Below are positions 4,174 to 56,784 of a stretch of DNA of 64,000 nt, piece after piece (position 1 is the stretch's first letter; the number at the start of each line of letters is the position of its first letter). Source of the DNA: Yersinia rochesterensis (lineage in GTDB: Bacteria; Pseudomonadota; Gammaproteobacteria; Enterobacterales; Enterobacteriaceae); contig NZ_CP032482.1 of the NCBI RefSeq assembly GCF_003600645.1, forward strand, positions 744,001 through 808,000. The letters run 5' to 3'. The translations under genes were made by a program, and so were the position numbers. The notes beneath the pieces are model-generated. The model saw only the letters and a program-made list of their open reading frames with translations, was not told the DNA's origin and did not search any database.

Positions 4174-4237
4174 GCAACAGTAGGCCTTACTGTTGCTGGG
4201 AACCAGCACGGGCGTCGAGGAAACTCTACGCCCGTGC
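4174..4237 (+). other. Two RNA hairpins between dnaK and dnaJ
   Basis: Hairpin A: a 9-bp stem (4174-4182 with 4188-4196). Hairpin B: a 10-bp stem (4206-4215 with 4228-4237), continued inside by GAG/CTC that closes a GAAA tetraloop at 4220-4223. Neither is followed by a T run, so they are better read as mRNA-stability, processing or partial attenuation elements than as a full terminator. Confidence 0.7.
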
Positions 4238-4266
4238 ACGCATGTTAAGGGTAGGAAAAAAAGAGA

Positions 4267-43159: not shown

Positions 43160-44821
43160 TTAATCCTCTGGTGGCGTAAACCAGGCCGATTTGAAGTCAA
43201 ACCAGCCGAGTGTGTTCATGCGCACCCCGCGCATACTGTGCTGCCCATATAATTCTAGCCAGTGATGGAACAGTGGGTGAAATTGATTCTGGCTGACCAA
43301 ACGCTGGCTCCATTCCGCCATTGGCAGAGTATTATTTCGCCATAATTCAACATCTTGGTGCAGTTTTTCATCCAGGCAATATTGCAGCAGCGGCAGCTCA
43401 TACAAGGTGGCAAACAGGGAAAATTCCAGCGGCAGATAAAAATTGGCGCTGCCGAGCCAGATGTCGCTCTGTGCATCCCCTTGATACCAACTGGCATAAT
43501 CCACCACATTTATGATCAATTTGACCCCATGTGCCGCTAATAATGTGGCCAATGTTTGGCTGATAGCATCAAACTCTGAATGGTGACTATAAAAAGTCAG
43601 TGTCAGTTCGGTCAAACCTTCCGGTTTCGCTTCCAGTACCCTGAGCCGGTTATGGTGCCAGCGCGGTAACATGCCGTAAGCCGGTGACCAGTAGCGTTGG
43701 TAAAAAGGGTCGGCATGGCTGAGTAGGGCGACGGGGGTGATGAGTTCACAGAGCCAACGGCGGATATCAGGATTGCAGGTTTGGGGAGATCGCTGGTCGA
43801 ATAGCAGAAAATAACAGCCTTCTTCCAGCCGGCTTTCCAGCTCATTTTTACTGGTATCATCAGCTTGCAATTGCACACCGGAATAAACCAACTCTTCGGA
43901 CAGCTCCGGTAATACCCAAATATTGACCTCATCAATAAGTGCGCGAAAACCAAAATAATTATCAAATGCCTGAATTTTCAATTGGCTATGATGATTTCGA
44001 ATCACGGAATAAGGGCCAGTCCCAATAGGTTGTCGGCGGAAATCCGGCTGATTCTCCCACTCTTGCGGCAAGATCATGGCGTGTACACTGCCCAACAACC
44101 ACGGCAGCCAGCTGTCCGGGGTACTGAGATGCACATCAATCACATACGGGGTGGGTGAGCGCACCGCGGTGATATGTGAAAACAGCGGTTGGGGGATTAA
44201 CCGAGTCAGGCTGGTCATCACATCATTCATTTCCAGCTCACGGCCATGGTGAAAATGAATCGCCGGGCGCAAATAAAAGCGCCAATGCAATGGGCTAATG
44301 GCTTGCCAGTGATGAGACAAATCCGGCTCCAGTTCCCCATTTTCCTCATTTATCCGCGTCAGACCATTAAAAATCTGCCGCACCATATGGGTTTCTGAGC
44401 GGCGCAGCGCGGTGCCGGGTAATAGATTTTGTAAGGGGCGATAATAGAGCACCCGCAGAATATGTTTACCTTGCCGGAAGCTGCGCCCTAACTGAGAGAG
44501 CAGCATTTGGCGCACCGCTTTTTTATCCCCGACCAACTGCACCAGTTGATCAATACTTTCTTGTTCCAGTAACTCTTCGGCCCGCTGTTGCTGTAAGGCC
44601 AGGCCGGAGCAGAGGAAAGTCAGTTGTGAGCGCTTACCTCGGCCAGCTTCCGCCTGCCAGCTCAGCCATCCCTCTTGCTGCATACTGCCCAATAAGGAAC
44701 GCACATGGCGGCGCGAGCAACAGAGCACGTCAGCCAGCTCCTGCAAGGTGGTTTCTGTGGGCAAACCGCTAAAACGTTGCCAAAGGCGAATGAACTGCTG
44801 TTGCAAGCGGGAGGTAGACAT
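43160..44821 (-). CDS. sgrR: Sugar-phosphate stress regulator SgrR
   Basis: Transcription factor that activates sgrS and setA during glucose-phosphate stress in E. coli. 553 residues: an N-terminal winged helix (about 1-75, [17 protein letters not shown]) and a C-terminal domain like periplasmic oligopeptide-binding proteins, with [13 protein letters not shown] and [12 protein letters not shown] 44821 gives [15 protein letters not shown] as in E. coli; ATG 44842 is an alternative. Here the divergent neighbour is ybiY rather than sgrS. Confidence 0.95.
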
Positions 44822-44925
44822 AAAAGGGGAACTCCTCGGCAAACTTCATCAATTTTTCTTTCCCTATATTACGCGGATACTGCTTGTTAATGAAAGCGGG
44901 TTAGTCAGCGAATGGGAGGAATAAG

Positions 44926-45825
44926 ATGATTTTTAATTTACAACGTTATTCCACTCATGACGGCCCCGGCATTCGTAGCGTGGTGTTCCTCAAAGGCTGT
45001 TCGTTGAGTTGTCGCTGGTGCCAAAACCCCGAAAGCCGCTCACGTGAGCCGGAGATGTTATTTGACCCGCGCCTGTGTTTATCCGGCTGCGATTTGTGTC
45101 ATCAGACTTGCCCACAAGCAATCCAACATATTGATAATAAAATTGTTATTCATCGCCAGCTATTGGCTGAAGACGACTTTCAAGCACTGAAAACGCGCTG
45201 CCCCAGTGGTGCGTTGACGGTGTGCGGTGACCCCATTGATATTGACGGCACTATGGCGATATTGCTGCGCGATTTGCCATTTTATCGGCGCAGTGGTGGC
45301 GGGGTGACATTATCTGGCGGCGAACCTTTTATGCAGCCGGAAGTGGCCGCTGAATTATTGCAGCGCTGCCATCAACTGGGCATCCATACCGCGGTTGAAT
45401 CTTGTTTGCACACCCCGTGGCGCTATATCGCCCCCTCTTTGCCGTGGCTGGATTTGATGCTGGCAGACTTGAAACACACCGATGAGCGCCGTTTTCAACA
45501 GTGGACTGGCGGCTCTGCCAAACGGGTGATGGATAACTTCCGCAAATTAGCGGCCGCGGGCACCGATATCACGGTGCGGGTGCCTTTAATCCCGGATTTC
45601 AATGCTGACCGCCGCTCGGTACAAGGAATTGTCGATTTTGCTGCGGATGAGATTGGCATGAAAGAAATTCATTTTTTGCCTTATCACACTCTGGGCATCA
45701 ATAAATATTCGCTGCTGGGTGAAAAGTATCTGGCGGCAAGTACACCTTTGGACTCTCCTTCCCTGCTGGCCTTCGCGGAAAGTTATGCCCGTGAAAAGGG
45801 CCTGACGGCAATCTTAAGAGGATGA
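44926..45825 (+). CDS. ybiY: Glycyl-radical enzyme activase YbiY
   Basis: Radical SAM enzyme that installs the glycyl radical on the next gene's product. 299 residues. The radical cluster motif is [13 protein letters not shown] (about 24-36, CxxxCxxC). A ferredoxin-like insert with [12 protein letters not shown] (about 46-57) and a further Cys near CPSG follows, as in activases with extra 4Fe-4S clusters. TLSGGEP is the SAM-binding motif. Sequence follows E. coli YbiY closely. GGGAGG precedes the ATG. Starts 104 bp from the divergent sgrR. Confidence 0.93.
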
Positions 45826-45829
45826 CGCA

Positions 45830-48262
45830 ATGACCACTCTCGATTTGGTAACCTTAAGCGAACGGACAAAACAGCATAAAAACGCGCTGATTCATATTGT
45901 AAAACCGCCGGTTTGTACTGAGCGGGCGTTGCATTATACCGAGGCTTATCAACAACATCAGGATAAACCGCTGCCGGTTCGGCGGGCGCTGGCACTGGCC
46001 CATCACTTACAGCAACGCACTGTTTGGATTAAAAATGATGAGCTAATTATTGGTAATCAGGCCAGCCAATTACGCGCCGCGCCGATTTTTCCTGAATACA
46101 CCGTGGGCTGGATTGAGAGTGAAATTGACGCGTTAGCCGACCGCCCCGGTGCCGGTTTCTCAGTCAGTGAAGCCGACAAAACGGTATTACACCAGCTGTG
46201 CCCATGGTGGCGCGGGCAAACAGTGCAAGACCGCTGCTACGGCATGTTTACTGATGAGCAAAAAGCGCTGTTGGCGACCGGCATTATAAAAGCCGAGGGC
46301 AATATGACCTCCGGCGATGCGCATTTGGCGGTTAACTTCCCGTTATTGCTAGAAAAAGGGCTGGATGGTCTGCGCAGTAAAGTGGCCAGCCGTCGCTCTC
46401 GGCTGCAACTGACTGACTGGAGTGACCTGCACAAAGAACAATTCCTGAAAGCGATTGATATCTCGCTGGCGGCTCTGAGCGCACATATTGAGCGCTATGC
46501 CACAGTGGCCCGGCAAATGGCGGAAGAAGAAACGCGTGAATGGCGGCGCACTGAACTACAAGAAATCGCCGAAAACTGTGAGCTGATTGCTCATCAGCCG
46601 CCGCAAACTTTCTGGCAAGCTCTGCAATTGTGCTATTTCATTCAACTGATTTTGCAAATTGAATCCAATGGTCATTCCGTCTCGTTTGGCCGTTTGGACC
46701 AATATCTGTATCCATGGTATCGCCGCGATGTTGAGTTGGAAAACACCCTCAGCCGCGAGCATGCTATTGAGATGCTGCATAGCTGCTGGCTGAAATTGCT
46801 GGAAGTGAACAAAATCCGCTCCGGTTCGCACTCCAAGGCCTCGGCGGGTAGCCCGCTTTATCAAAACGTCACTATCGGCGGGCAAAAATTGGTGCAGGGC
46901 AAAGCCATTGATGCGGTGAATCCGCTCTCTTATGCGGTGTTGGAATCCTGTGGGCGCTTACGTTCAACCCAGCCGAATCTCAGTGTTCGCTATCATGCCG
47001 GTATCAGTGATGATTTCCTCGATGCTTGCGTGCAAGTCATTCGCTGTGGTTTTGGTATGCCTGCATTTAATAATGACGAAATTGTTATTCCCGAATTTAT
47101 CAAACTGGGTGTCGAGCCGCAGGATGCCTATGATTACGCGGCGATTGGCTGCATTGAAACCGCCGTCGGCGGCAAGTGGGGCTACCGCTGCACCGGTATG
47201 AGTTTCATTAACTTCGCCAGAGTGATGTTGGCTGCGTTGGAGCAAGGTCGCGATGCCACTTCCGGCCAGGTGTTCTTGCCACAAGAGCAAGGATTGTCGA
47301 AAGGTAACTTTAGCGATTTCTCTCAAGTCATGGCGCAATGGGATGCGCAGATTCGCTATTACACCCGCAAATCCATTGAAATAGAGTGTGTGGTGGACAC
47401 TATCTTGGAAGAAAACGCCCACGATATCGTCTGTTCAGCGCTGGTGGATGATTGCATTGAGCGCGGCAAAAGTATCAAACAGGGCGGGGCGCGCTACGAC
47501 TGGGTTTCTGGCTTGCAAGTCGGGATTGCCAATTTGGGTAACAGTCTGGCGGCTGTGCGCAAATTGGTATTTGAACAACAACTTATCAGCCAAAAACAGC
47601 TGGCCACTGCATTAGCCAATGATTTTGCTGGTCTGAATGGCGAGCAGCTACGCCAGCATTTGATTAATTCAGCGCCGAAATACGGCAATGATGTTGATGA
47701 TGTCGACCAACTGTTAGTGCGGGCTTATCAGACTTACATTGATGAGCTGAAGCAATATCACAATACGCGTTTTGGTCGCGGCCCGATTGGCGGCACTTAT
47801 TATGCGGGAACCTCGTCTATCTCTGCCAACGTGCCATTTGGCGCGGCGACCATGGCAACACCCGATGGCCGTAAAGCGCACAGCCCATTGGCGGAGGGGG
47901 CAAGCCCCGCTTCTGGCACTGACCATCTGGGGCCAACGGCGGTGTTTAACTCATTGTCAAAATTGCCAACGGCTTCGATTCTGGGCGGCGTGTTGCTCAA
48001 TCAAAAGTTGAACCCGTCCACATTGGATAATCCGCGTGACCGCGAAAAGTTGATGATGATGCTGCGCACTTTCTTTGAGGAGTATTTGGGCTGGCATGTG
48101 CAATACAACATTGTGTCGCGTGAAACCTTGCTGGAAGCCAAGCAGCACCCGGATCGCTACCGTGATTTAGTGGTCAGAGTTGCCGGTTACTCGGCATTCT
48201 TCACCGCGCTGTCGCCGGATGCACAGGACGATATTATCGCCCGCACTGAACATACTTTGTAA
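45830..48262 (+). CDS. ybiW: Glycyl-radical enzyme YbiW (PflF)
   Basis: Glycyl-radical enzyme of 810 residues, the same length as E. coli YbiW and very similar along its whole length. The thiyl-radical cysteine is in AAIGCIETAVGG (about 434-445), and the glycyl radical loop is RVAGYSAFFTAL near the C-terminus. My recollection is that E. coli YbiW was recently assigned to ring-opening of 1,5-anhydroglucitol-6-phosphate, which I cannot check here; older annotation calls it a putative formate acetyltransferase. It needs anaerobic activation by YbiY, 4 bp upstream. The stop codon directly precedes an SgrS-like RNA. Confidence 0.92.
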   Translation: MTTLDLVTLSERTKQHKNALIHIVKPPVCTERALHYTEAYQQHQDKPLPVRRALALAHHLQQRTVWIKNDELIIGNQASQLRAAPIFPEYTVGWIESEIDALADRPGAGFSVSEADKTVLHQLCPWWRGQTVQDRCYGMFTDEQKALLATGIIKAEGNMTSGDAHLAVNFPLLLEKGLDGLRSKVASRRSRLQLTDWSDLHKEQFLKAIDISLAALSAHIERYATVARQMAEEETREWRRTELQEIAENCELIAHQPPQTFWQALQLCYFIQLILQIESNGHSVSFGRLDQYLYPWYRRDVELENTLSREHAIEMLHSCWLKLLEVNKIRSGSHSKASAGSPLYQNVTIGGQKLVQGKAIDAVNPLSYAVLESCGRLRSTQPNLSVRYHAGISDDFLDACVQVIRCGFGMPAFNNDEIVIPEFIKLGVEPQDAYDYAAIGCIETAVGGKWGYRCTGMSFINFARVMLAALEQGRDATSGQVFLPQEQGLSKGNFSDFSQVMAQWDAQIRYYTRKSIEIECVVDTILEENAHDIVCSALVDDCIERGKSIKQGGARYDWVSGLQVGIANLGNSLAAVRKLVFEQQLISQKQLATALANDFAGLNGEQLRQHLINSAPKYGNDVDDVDQLLVRAYQTYIDELKQYHNTRFGRGPIGGTYYAGTSSISANVPFGAATMATPDGRKAHSPLAEGASPASGTDHLGPTAVFNSLSKLPTASILGGVLLNQKLNPSTLDNPRDREKLMMMLRTFFEEYLGWHVQYNIVSRETLLEAKQHPDRYRDLVVRVAGYSAFFTALSPDAQDDIIARTEHTL

Positions 48263-48347
48263 TTTAGTCTTGCTTTACCGAGTAGCAAAAGTTTCTGAGT
48301 AATGGTGTATTTCACCAGCCAGTGGTTTATGCCACTGGCTTTTTTTA
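48263..48347 (+). ncRNA. sgrS: SgrS small RNA, conserved 3' half
   Basis: CTGAGTAATGGTG (48295-48307) corresponds to the E. coli SgrS seed CTGAGTATTGGTG, which pairs with the ptsG ribosome-binding region. It is followed by the small hairpin TGGTG/CACCA (48303-48317) and a terminator: 8-bp stem GCCAGTGG/CCACTGGC (48318-48339) with eight T. The order, spacing and sequences match the SgrS 3' end, and setA lies downstream as in E. coli. The 5' boundary is unknown: homology fades at the ybiW stop, and I see no sgrT frame. Confidence 0.75.
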
Positions 48348-48362
48348 TTACCTTTCGCACTC

Positions 48363-48410
48363 GAAGCTGTGGCGTTGTTAGCGACGTTCGCGCACCCGAA
48401 TCATTGGGAT
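48363..48410 (-). repeat. Degenerate partial ERIC sequence
   Basis: GAAGCTG, GCGTTG and CACCCGAATCA occur in the same order and similar spacing as in one half of the ERIC copies at 6922 and 63582. The other half is missing. Lies between sgrS and setA. Confidence 0.4.
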
Positions 48411-48505
48411 GTGAAATTTATGCGGCTTTTATATTTTTCTCTATATAAATCTGCGCGCTTCTGTAGCATAGCGTTTAATAGCTGTTTCTGGCGCTGGAGC
48501 CTGGA

Positions 48506-49687
48506 ATGAAATCTGCATTAACCTTTTCCCGCCGTATCAACCCGGTTTTTCTCGCTTTCTTTGTGGTGGCTTTTCTTTCTGGTATTGCGGGTGCCTTGCA
48601 AGCTCCGACCTTAAGTCTGTTTTTAAGCACCGAAGTCAAAGTGCGGCCACTATGGGTTGGGCTGTTTTACACTGTGAATGCTATTGCCGGGATTACCGTC
48701 AGCTTTGTGCTGGCCAAGCGCTCGGACTCGCGCGGGGATCGGCGCAAACTCATTATGGTTTGCTACTTAATGGCGGTGGGGAACTGCCTGTTATTTGCCT
48801 TTAATCGTGATTATCTGACCTTGATCACCGCCGGAGTGGTGTTGGCCGCCGTGGCTAACACCGCCATGCCGCAAATTTTCGCTCTAGCGCGTGAATATGC
48901 TGATAGCTCGGCCCGAGAAGTGGTGATGTTCAGCTCCATTATGCGTGCGCAGCTCTCATTGGCTTGGGTTATCGGGCCGCCGCTGTCATTTATGCTGGCG
49001 CTGAATTATGGCTTTACCCTGATGTTCAGTATTGCGGCCGGTATTTTTGTGCTGAGCGCGCTGGTGGTGTGGTTTATTCTGCCGTCGGTGCCGCGGGCAG
49101 AGCCGGTAGCGGATGCCCCTGCGGTGGCGCAAGTGAGCTTGTTTGCTGATAAAAACGTGTTGTTATTGTTTATTGCTTCAATGCTGATGTGGACTTGCAA
49201 TACCATGTATATCATTGATATGCCTTTATATATCACCGCAAACTTGGGGTTACCTGAGCGGTTAGCGGGTTTATTGATGGGGACGGCGGCCGGGCTGGAA
49301 ATTCCTATCATGTTGTTGGCGGGGTATTCAGTCAGACGTTTTGGTAAGCGCAAAATCATGTTGTTTGCGGTGCTGGCTGGCGTGCTGTTTTATACCGGAT
49401 TGGTGCTGTTTAAATTCAAAACCGCCCTGATGTTATTGCAGATTTTTAATGCCATTTTCATCGGCATTGTCGCCGGGATTGGTATGCTTTATTTTCAGGA
49501 TTTAATGCCCGGCAGGGCAGGAGCCGCTACCACGTTGTTTACCAACAGTATTTCAACCGGGGTGATTCTGGCAGGGGTGCTGCAAGGGGTATTAACGGAA
49601 ACTTGGGGACATGATTCGGTGTATGTCATGGCGATGATTCTCGCCATTCTCTCACTTATCATTTGTGCGCGAGTCAGAGAAGCTTAG
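48506..49687 (+). CDS. setA: Sugar efflux transporter SetA
   Basis: Major facilitator superfamily exporter of glucosides, lactose and glucose analogues. 393 residues with 12 predicted spans. GALQAPTLSLFLS near the start, VMFSSIMRAQLSLAWVIGPP in the middle and QDLMPGRAGAATTLFTNS near the end match SET-family proteins. In E. coli setA is part of the SgrR-controlled stress response, and its position after sgrS is kept. TGGAG precedes the ATG. Confidence 0.95.
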   Translation: MKSALTFSRRINPVFLAFFVVAFLSGIAGALQAPTLSLFLSTEVKVRPLWVGLFYTVNAIAGITVSFVLAKRSDSRGDRRKLIMVCYLMAVGNCLLFAFNRDYLTLITAGVVLAAVANTAMPQIFALAREYADSSAREVVMFSSIMRAQLSLAWVIGPPLSFMLALNYGFTLMFSIAAGIFVLSALVVWFILPSVPRAEPVADAPAVAQVSLFADKNVLLLFIASMLMWTCNTMYIIDMPLYITANLGLPERLAGLLMGTAAGLEIPIMLLAGYSVRRFGKRKIMLFAVLAGVLFYTGLVLFKFKTALMLLQIFNAIFIGIVAGIGMLYFQDLMPGRAGAATTLFTNSISTGVILAGVLQGVLTETWGHDSVYVMAMILAILSLIICARVREA

Positions 49688-56608: not shown

Positions 56609-56638
56609 AAAAAAAAGCCCGCGCATTTGCGCGGGCTT
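56609..56638 (-). terminator. leu operon attenuator
   Basis: A perfect 10-bp GC-rich stem (56615-56624 with 56629-56638) followed on the minus strand by a run of eight T, between leuL and leuA. This is the classical leucine attenuator. Confidence 0.95.
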
Positions 56639-56657
56639 GTTAATCTTGATGGCTGAA

Positions 56658-56741
56658 TCAGTTCTGATTTCCGTCCACCAACATACCGCGCAAGTGAGAT
56701 GCGTTGAGTAGTAGGCCTAGTAGACGGGTTGAGTAGAACAT
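56658..56741 (-). CDS. leuL: leu operon leader peptide LeuL
   Basis: 27-codon leader from ATG 56741, beginning [19 protein letters not shown]. Five leucines fall within six residues (7-12), four coded by the rare CTA codon. The stretch aligns with E. coli LeuL (RFTGLLLLNAFIVRG). When charged Leu-tRNA is scarce the ribosome stalls at these codons and an antiterminator can form. The attenuator follows 20 bp after the stop codon. Confidence 0.92.
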
Positions 56742-56784
56742 AATTTTTCAGTTTCTCATTAGTTAAAATATTGCGTTGCCTAAA

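Follow-up and report, generated by a model that had tools for sequence, protein, structure and literature searches.

The closest described relatives of the locus analysed here are two loci of Escherichia coli. In one of them, sgrR, sgrS and setA are neighbours: SgrR activates sgrS under sugar-phosphate stress, and SgrS is a dual-function small RNA (sRNA) that represses ptsG by base pairing and also encodes SgrT, a transporter inhibitor. In the other, ybiYW, which encodes a glycyl-radical enzyme and its radical-SAM activase, lies divergent from fsaA. Sugar phosphates that glycolysis does not handle are described as the kind that raises SgrS, and the SgrR inducers named in the same review are laboratory ones, alpha-methylglucoside and glycolytic blocks (PMC4021124). 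Here we analyse a 64,000-nucleotide stretch of Yersinia rochesterensis DNA (contig NZ_CP032482.1, positions 744,001 to 808,000; "the window"), in which ybiY and ybiW stand between sgrR and the 3' part of SgrS. We consider it likely that ybiYW became nested in the former sgrS gene, in the place of SgrT, and that SgrR drives a single ybiY-ybiW-SgrS RNA in which SgrS would form the 3' untranslated region (3' UTR).

Organization of the locus

The features of the locus, in window coordinates, are the following.

43160..44821, minus strand: sgrR, transcription factor that switches on the response to sugar-phosphate stress (NCBIfam NF010149, 1039 bits against a cutoff of 476)
44822..44888, plus strand: putative ancestral sgrS promoter region before ybiY, with a 25-bp core (44847-44871) and a -10-like GATACT (44876-44881)
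44889..44925, plus strand: inferred transcript 5' end and 37-nt SgrS-derived leader, with the ybiY ribosome site GGGAGG (44914-44919)
44926..45825, plus strand: ybiY, radical-SAM activase of YbiW (TIGR02494, 342 bits)
45830..48262, plus strand: ybiW, glycyl-radical enzyme, predicted 1,5-anhydroglucitol-6-phosphate lyase (84% identity to E. coli YbiW)
48272..48346, plus strand: SgrS 3' module (Rfam RF00534), comprising base-pairing seed, small stem-loop and intrinsic terminator; probable 3' UTR of ybiYW
48290..48308, plus strand: ptsG-complementary stretch, 19 contiguous pairs including G-U with the ribosome-binding site of the genome's own ptsG
48506..49687, plus strand: setA, sugar efflux transporter family (TIGR00899, 525.7 bits, cutoff 522.3)

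All five elements, sgrR on the minus strand followed by ybiY, ybiW, the SgrS 3' module and setA, are present in this order, and the order and the 104-bp divergence of sgrR and ybiY reported in a first-pass annotation of the window are borne out by coordinates and profile matches. The sgrR start is the homologous ATG at 44821; the start at 44842 in the open reading frame list is an upstream TTG. Only four bases separate ybiY from ybiW, and YbiY carries a CxxxCxxC motif, read from the sequence, which we take to be the motif of radical-SAM activases. With ybiYW in between, the seed lies 3.47 kb from the sgrR start, and sgrS does not directly follow the sgrR-side promoter. The 37-nt leader before ybiY and the 32-nt spacer after ybiW cannot hold an sgrT gene, and SgrT is not encoded here. 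The role of efflux arm given to SetA in the first-pass annotation is weakly founded: export of alpha-methylglucoside by SetA has been tested and is described as unsupported, yet setA helps recovery under some conditions (2014 review, PMC4021124); we do not call SetA an efflux arm.

The promoter block upstream of ybiY

The 25-bp core upstream of ybiY is identical in all 21 of the 25 genus genomes examined that carry the insert, and a search with this 25-mer, allowing up to 3 mismatches, returned one match per genome in 25 of 25. On the ybiY side, the -10-like GATACT is kept in 21 of 21, the sgrR-ybiY gap measures 103-125 bp in 19 of them, and GATACT is followed by AATGAAAG or close variants at the point where E. 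coli SgrS begins GATGAAG; the transcript start near 44889 was placed by alignment with the E. coli sgrS +1. Genomes G167 and G149 have gaps enlarged to 261 and 205 bp, respectively; in G167 the extra length comes from short tandem repeats downstream of the point where the transcript is predicted to start.

A position weight matrix was trained on 26 SgrS-linked blocks (47 of 54 promoter regions were used, 7 divergent non-Yersinia ones misfitting the anchor). It scored 57.0 at the window site, against 1.9 for the next best site in the 64 kb, and 55.1-60.6 on the 21 ybiY-linked blocks, inside the training range of 36.7-61.8. SgrR control of ybiYW before the move was considered; upstream of ybiY in 73 named non-Yersinia loci there was no block (best score -2.0). 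Control of ybiYW by SgrR from the shared intergenic region, as suggested in the first-pass annotation, is the best reading, because the ancestral sgrS promoter and start region is found immediately before ybiY.

The SgrS 3' module and its predicted pairing with ptsG

The seed, the small stem-loop and the terminator of SgrS are present in all 25 genomes. In the window the terminator consists of a hairpin at 48317-48340 and a T run; its upper stem varies across the 25 genomes, with both sides changing at some pairs and with a few mismatches. Measured from the ybiW stop, the end of the terminator lies 83-155 nt downstream in all 21 insert genomes, near the length of about 85-140 nt given for Yersinia SgrS in a review (PMC4021124). 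Between the seed and the leader of the genome's own ptsG, 19 pairs in a row are possible, G-U pairs among them, and they span the Shine-Dalgarno/ribosome site of ptsG. Among 5000 mononucleotide-shuffled ptsG leaders none reached a run of this length, the best having 15. Reviews, including PMC4021124 and PMC4585118, state that Y. pestis SgrS represses E. coli ptsG and that it lacks SgrT. The main text of two Yersinia transcriptome papers does not mention SgrS.

Distribution and origin of the arrangement

The arrangement sgrR-ybiYW-SgrS seed-setA occurs in 21 of the 25 genus genomes, with setA confirmed in all 21, so that a chance order was rejected, as was an artefact of a single assembly; an order confined to one assembly had been named in the first-pass annotation as what would refute its proposal. 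SgrR is present in all 25 genomes and YbiW in 22 (E <= 1e-100). Of the four remaining genomes, three early-branching ones (G156, G164 and G168), which have no ybiW match at E <= 1e-100, carry after sgrR a full-length SgrS with a 58-aa SgrT, that of G164 being 47% identical to E. coli SgrT over 38 residues (E 2e-9). The fourth, G169, has a short SgrS after sgrR with neither sgrT nor ybiYW in it; by eye, the leader of G169 is shared with the left side of the insert, and the sequence before its seed with the right side. From this series, the SgrT-bearing SgrS on the one hand and the two halves in G169 on the other, it follows that ybiYW sits inside what is SgrS elsewhere. The earlier statement that ybiYW fills the gap between sgrR and SgrS therefore holds as to its lying between them and needs correction as to the place, which the genome comparison puts inside the sgrS gene, at the position of SgrT. 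The published view is that Yersinia SgrS is without sgrT (PMC4021124); the 58-aa SgrT of L084, L085 and L086 (G164, G156 and G168, respectively) contrasts with it.

Outside the genus the picture is different. Among 80 named ybiW loci, the order sgrR-ybiY-ybiW-setA was found in 7 of 7 from Yersinia, and sgrR was found in none of the 73 non-Yersinia loci (flank up to 5 kb), 62 of which have ybiYW divergent from fsaA, as has E. coli. Conversely, 29 sgrR loci from outside Yersinia were read over 1.5 kb, and none has ybiYW there; in 26 of them the distance between the sgrR start and an SgrS seed is 105-354 nt. These loci are that of E. coli and those of 28 genomes, out of 80 non-Yersinia ones with SgrR, in which the flank upstream of sgrR was read; the others were judged by coordinates alone. 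A survey of the family, with roughly one genome for each genus taken from a larger set and with some fragmented assemblies, contained YbiW in 47 of 149 genomes (E <= 1e-150) and SgrR in 82 of 149 (E <= 1e-60), and the two were adjacent by coordinates only in the window genome and in one genome of the same genus. That the order is common to Serratia, a comparison proposed in the first-pass annotation, was rejected: the 13 named Serratia loci have ybiYW beside fsaA, with no sgrR in the flank examined.

In a YbiW tree, the 21 insert-type sequences form one clade (SH-aLRT, an approximate likelihood-ratio support, 100), which is grouped with 12 of the 13 Serratia sequences (support 98). The tree was made by a quick method with SH-aLRT support only, from 22 Yersinia sequences, E. 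coli K-12 and 72 of the 73 named non-Yersinia loci (L175, cut by a contig end, was left out). The YbiW of G169 falls among Enterobacteriaceae. An SgrR tree accommodates the insert as one change, and G169 branches next to the 21 insert genomes (support 81/54), a position with which loss of the insert and never having had it both fit. The simplest account is a single move, its source probably an fsaA-linked copy like that of Serratia. In G169, ybiW (82% identity) adjoins fsaA on another contig (L111, G169:C29); this fsaA-ybiYW is of the Enterobacteriaceae type and was apparently acquired independently.

Between the ybiW stop and setA lie 236 to 840 nt across the 21 genomes. In some genomes units of about 124 bp occur between SgrS and setA (L105:1119-1366, L005:1036-1360 and L099:1111-1358); they are similar to Rfam V_AS5 but score under its gathering threshold. 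The ybiW of G170 (L095) has a 12-residue in-frame insertion resembling a local repeat.

Another SgrR-like protein, 604 aa long (L218:4806-6620; G000:C1 around 2582829), is 51% identical to SgrR over the first 309 residues and is found in 17 of the 25 genus genomes at E <= 1e-60. About 8 kb separate its gene from ptsG; the gene diverges from one resembling that of shikimate dehydrogenase and adjoins a cluster for a radical-SAM protein and peptide export (these neighbours were named by eye). Further Rfam matches in the window are tpke11 and Leu_leader, at 4188-4264 and 56611-56757, respectively.

Predicted function of YbiW

YbiW of the window is identical to E. coli YbiW at 683 of 810 residues (84%), and the PDB entries that match it best, 8id7 and 8yjn, are both entitled 'Probable dehydratase YbiW'. 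Assignment as a PflD-type enzyme was rejected, the protein scoring 1586 bits to YbiW chains and 487 to PflD. The Cys441 and Gly786 motifs, which we take to be catalytic, are present. The window genome has this one YbiW-type enzyme and two weaker matches, which we read as pyruvate formate-lyase and a spare glycyl-radical protein. A 2025 review describes 1-deoxyfructose-6-phosphate as the product that E. coli YbiW and PflD form by cleavage of 1,5-anhydroglucitol-6-phosphate, or of the manno form of this compound, once uptake by the phosphotransferase system has taken place; the reaction proceeds only without oxygen (PMC12441222). The substrate named in the first-pass annotation thus holds at second hand for the E. 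coli enzyme, and we predict that YbiW acts on it in Yersinia as well. Genes for an FSA-type aldolase (24 of 25 Yersinia genomes) and a GldA-type reductase (at 57-59% in 23 of 25) make the pathway possible and do not imply its use. In the original description of the pathway, an aldolase and a reductase reportedly carry out the later steps.

Given that sugar phosphates outside glycolysis raise SgrS and that YbiW is so close to its E. coli counterpart, we propose 1,5-anhydroglucitol-6-phosphate as a natural trigger of SgrR. If selection has linked SgrR to an enzyme for one dead-end sugar phosphate, that link names a candidate trigger amenable to testing in E. coli K-12.

Proposed mechanism and alternative explanations

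The locus can be accounted for as follows. In the ancestor of most Yersinia, ybiY-ybiW would have moved once into the dual-function sgrS gene, at the place of sgrT. Under sugar-phosphate stress SgrR would activate the old sgrS promoter, giving a single RNA of about 3.46 kb from about 44889 that would consist of a short SgrS-derived leader, ybiY, ybiW, the pairing module and the SgrS terminator; this is the simplest account, because the promoter block is kept upstream of ybiY and none was found near the ybiW end. SgrS would then be cut out of the 3' UTR, RNase E being the probable nuclease, and repress ptsG, while YbiW, an FSA-type aldolase and a GldA-type reductase would remove 1,5-anhydroglucitol-6-phosphate anaerobically. 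The plan of SgrS, an uptake-blocking sRNA together with a protein that counters the same stress, would thus be kept, the protein now being an enzyme that destroys a stressor and not an inhibitor of a transporter. In the sequences compared, the order is nested, the promoter block, the pairing module and the terminator are kept, and the insert forms one clade; from these we infer activation of ybiYW by SgrR, release of SgrS, repression of ptsG and removal of the substrate. If the scheme is right, the single RNA would fix the coupling of enzyme and sRNA, with a lag of about 1 minute, at the usual speed of the polymerase, between the message for the enzyme and SgrS. A wider proposal is that exchange of sgrT for ybiYW made a dual-function sRNA gene serve as 3' UTR to an operon of metabolism and thereby put an enzyme for 1,5-anhydroglucitol-6-phosphate under SgrR, with this compound as a natural ligand or trigger of SgrR; the proposal is tentative, and we lean slightly against its holding in full.

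Alternative explanations concern the promoter of SgrS, the purpose of the block and the purpose of the enzyme. SgrS may keep a weak or SgrR-independent promoter of its own in the ybiW end or the spacer, ybiYW merely separating it from sgrR. A discrete small SgrS RNA has been detected in two Yersinia species according to a review (PMC4585118), which fits processing or an own promoter alike, and a stretch resembling AGTCTTGC is repeated in many spacers. Yet the last 500 nt of ybiW plus the spacer contain no copy of the block in any of the 21 genomes (best score -6.7), synonymous conservation is not raised at the ybiW end (last 30 codons at the 63rd percentile, last 100 at the 81st, in 20 of the 21 ybiW genes, G170 being left out for its in-frame insertion), and the stop-to-seed spacer, 32-104 nt in the 21 genomes, is little conserved; we regard an own promoter as improbable. 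The block on the sgrR side could also be kept only for autoregulation of sgrR, with ybiYW driven otherwise and its position accidental. SgrR probably regulates its own gene, and the E. coli block likewise lies directly upstream of sgrR. Against this stand the GATACT kept on the ybiY side in every insert genome and followed by a ribosome site, the narrow range of the gap in 19 of the 21, and the retained SgrS module downstream, which needs a promoter, and we give the explanation very little credence. Nested control by SgrR may, finally, hold with the enzyme there to obtain carbon from 1,5-anhydroglucitol (or a different sugar phosphate) and not to relieve stress, SgrS tuning ptsG during growth on it. 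Anaerobic growth on 1,5-anhydroglucitol by this pathway has been reported for E. coli and further gut bacteria (PMC12441222), but a stress activator as regulator and a linked repressor of ptsG fit detoxification better; this version is unlikely, though plausible enough to keep in mind, and both roles are compatible.

Several points weigh against a single SgrR-driven detoxification transcript. Operon, start site and processing are deduced from conservation, and the promoter block may be kept for sgrR alone. A sigma-70 scan found six sites where 6.0 were expected and missed the sgrS promoter region itself, so that an internal promoter may exist, and the small SgrS RNA mentioned above would fit one as well as processing. 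The Rfam score of the module, 37.6 bits, is barely above the gathering score of 37 (E. coli SgrS scores 228.8). At the gathering score Rfam SgrS matched none of 10 Yersinia sgrR or sgrR-linked ybiW loci, and at E <= 0.1 it matched 12 of 12 related loci with 26.2-40.1 bits, 2 of the 12 reaching the gathering score; because these scores are marginal, the identity of SgrS also rests on seed, terminator and position. When hairpins are included in the duplex energy, 19 of 500 shuffles reached the observed value. The node for a single move in the SgrR tree is weakly supported (81/54). Since the enzyme needs anaerobiosis, the role of YbiW would be conditional. The FSA-type aldolase gave no hit in the insert genome G150 (94% complete), G165 has a GldA relative at 33% only, and the GldA frame of G171 holds a stop; moreover, the aldolase and the reductase do not mark the pathway, as they also occur in the 3 genomes without ybiW.

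Comparison with known systems

In the literature searched, no link of YbiW to SgrR or SgrS was found, although the gene order as such may have been published before; PMC2527527 and PMC13293527 have no bearing on the inserted genes. An interpretation in terms of function, with an enzyme inside an sRNA gene, conversion to a 3' UTR and a candidate ligand, was not met there, and the parts of the 3'-UTR sRNA literature seen named no such RNA that is a dual-function sRNA elsewhere. As regards conversion to a 3' UTR, the nearest parallels are CpxQ/cpxP (PMC9438474) and SdhX, described as cases in which mRNA and sRNA come from one transcript, and RsaG from the uhpT 3' UTR of Staphylococcus aureus. RsaG, too, is described as lying at the 3' end of a gene concerned with hexose phosphates and as being switched on by a sensor of such phosphates; it differs in being another RNA with a transporter as parent gene and in being made by RNase J1/J2 (PMC9438474). 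With ybiYW-fsaA of E. coli the Yersinia locus shares a YbiW of 84% identity and an adjacent activase, whereas here ybiYW is divergent from sgrR and has another promoter. With sgrR-sgrS(sgrT)-setA of E. coli it shares SgrR, the promoter block, the SgrS seed and terminator, setA and the ptsG target; in Yersinia, by contrast, sgrT is replaced by ybiY-ybiW, and SgrS apparently forms the 3' end of a 3.46-kb mRNA.

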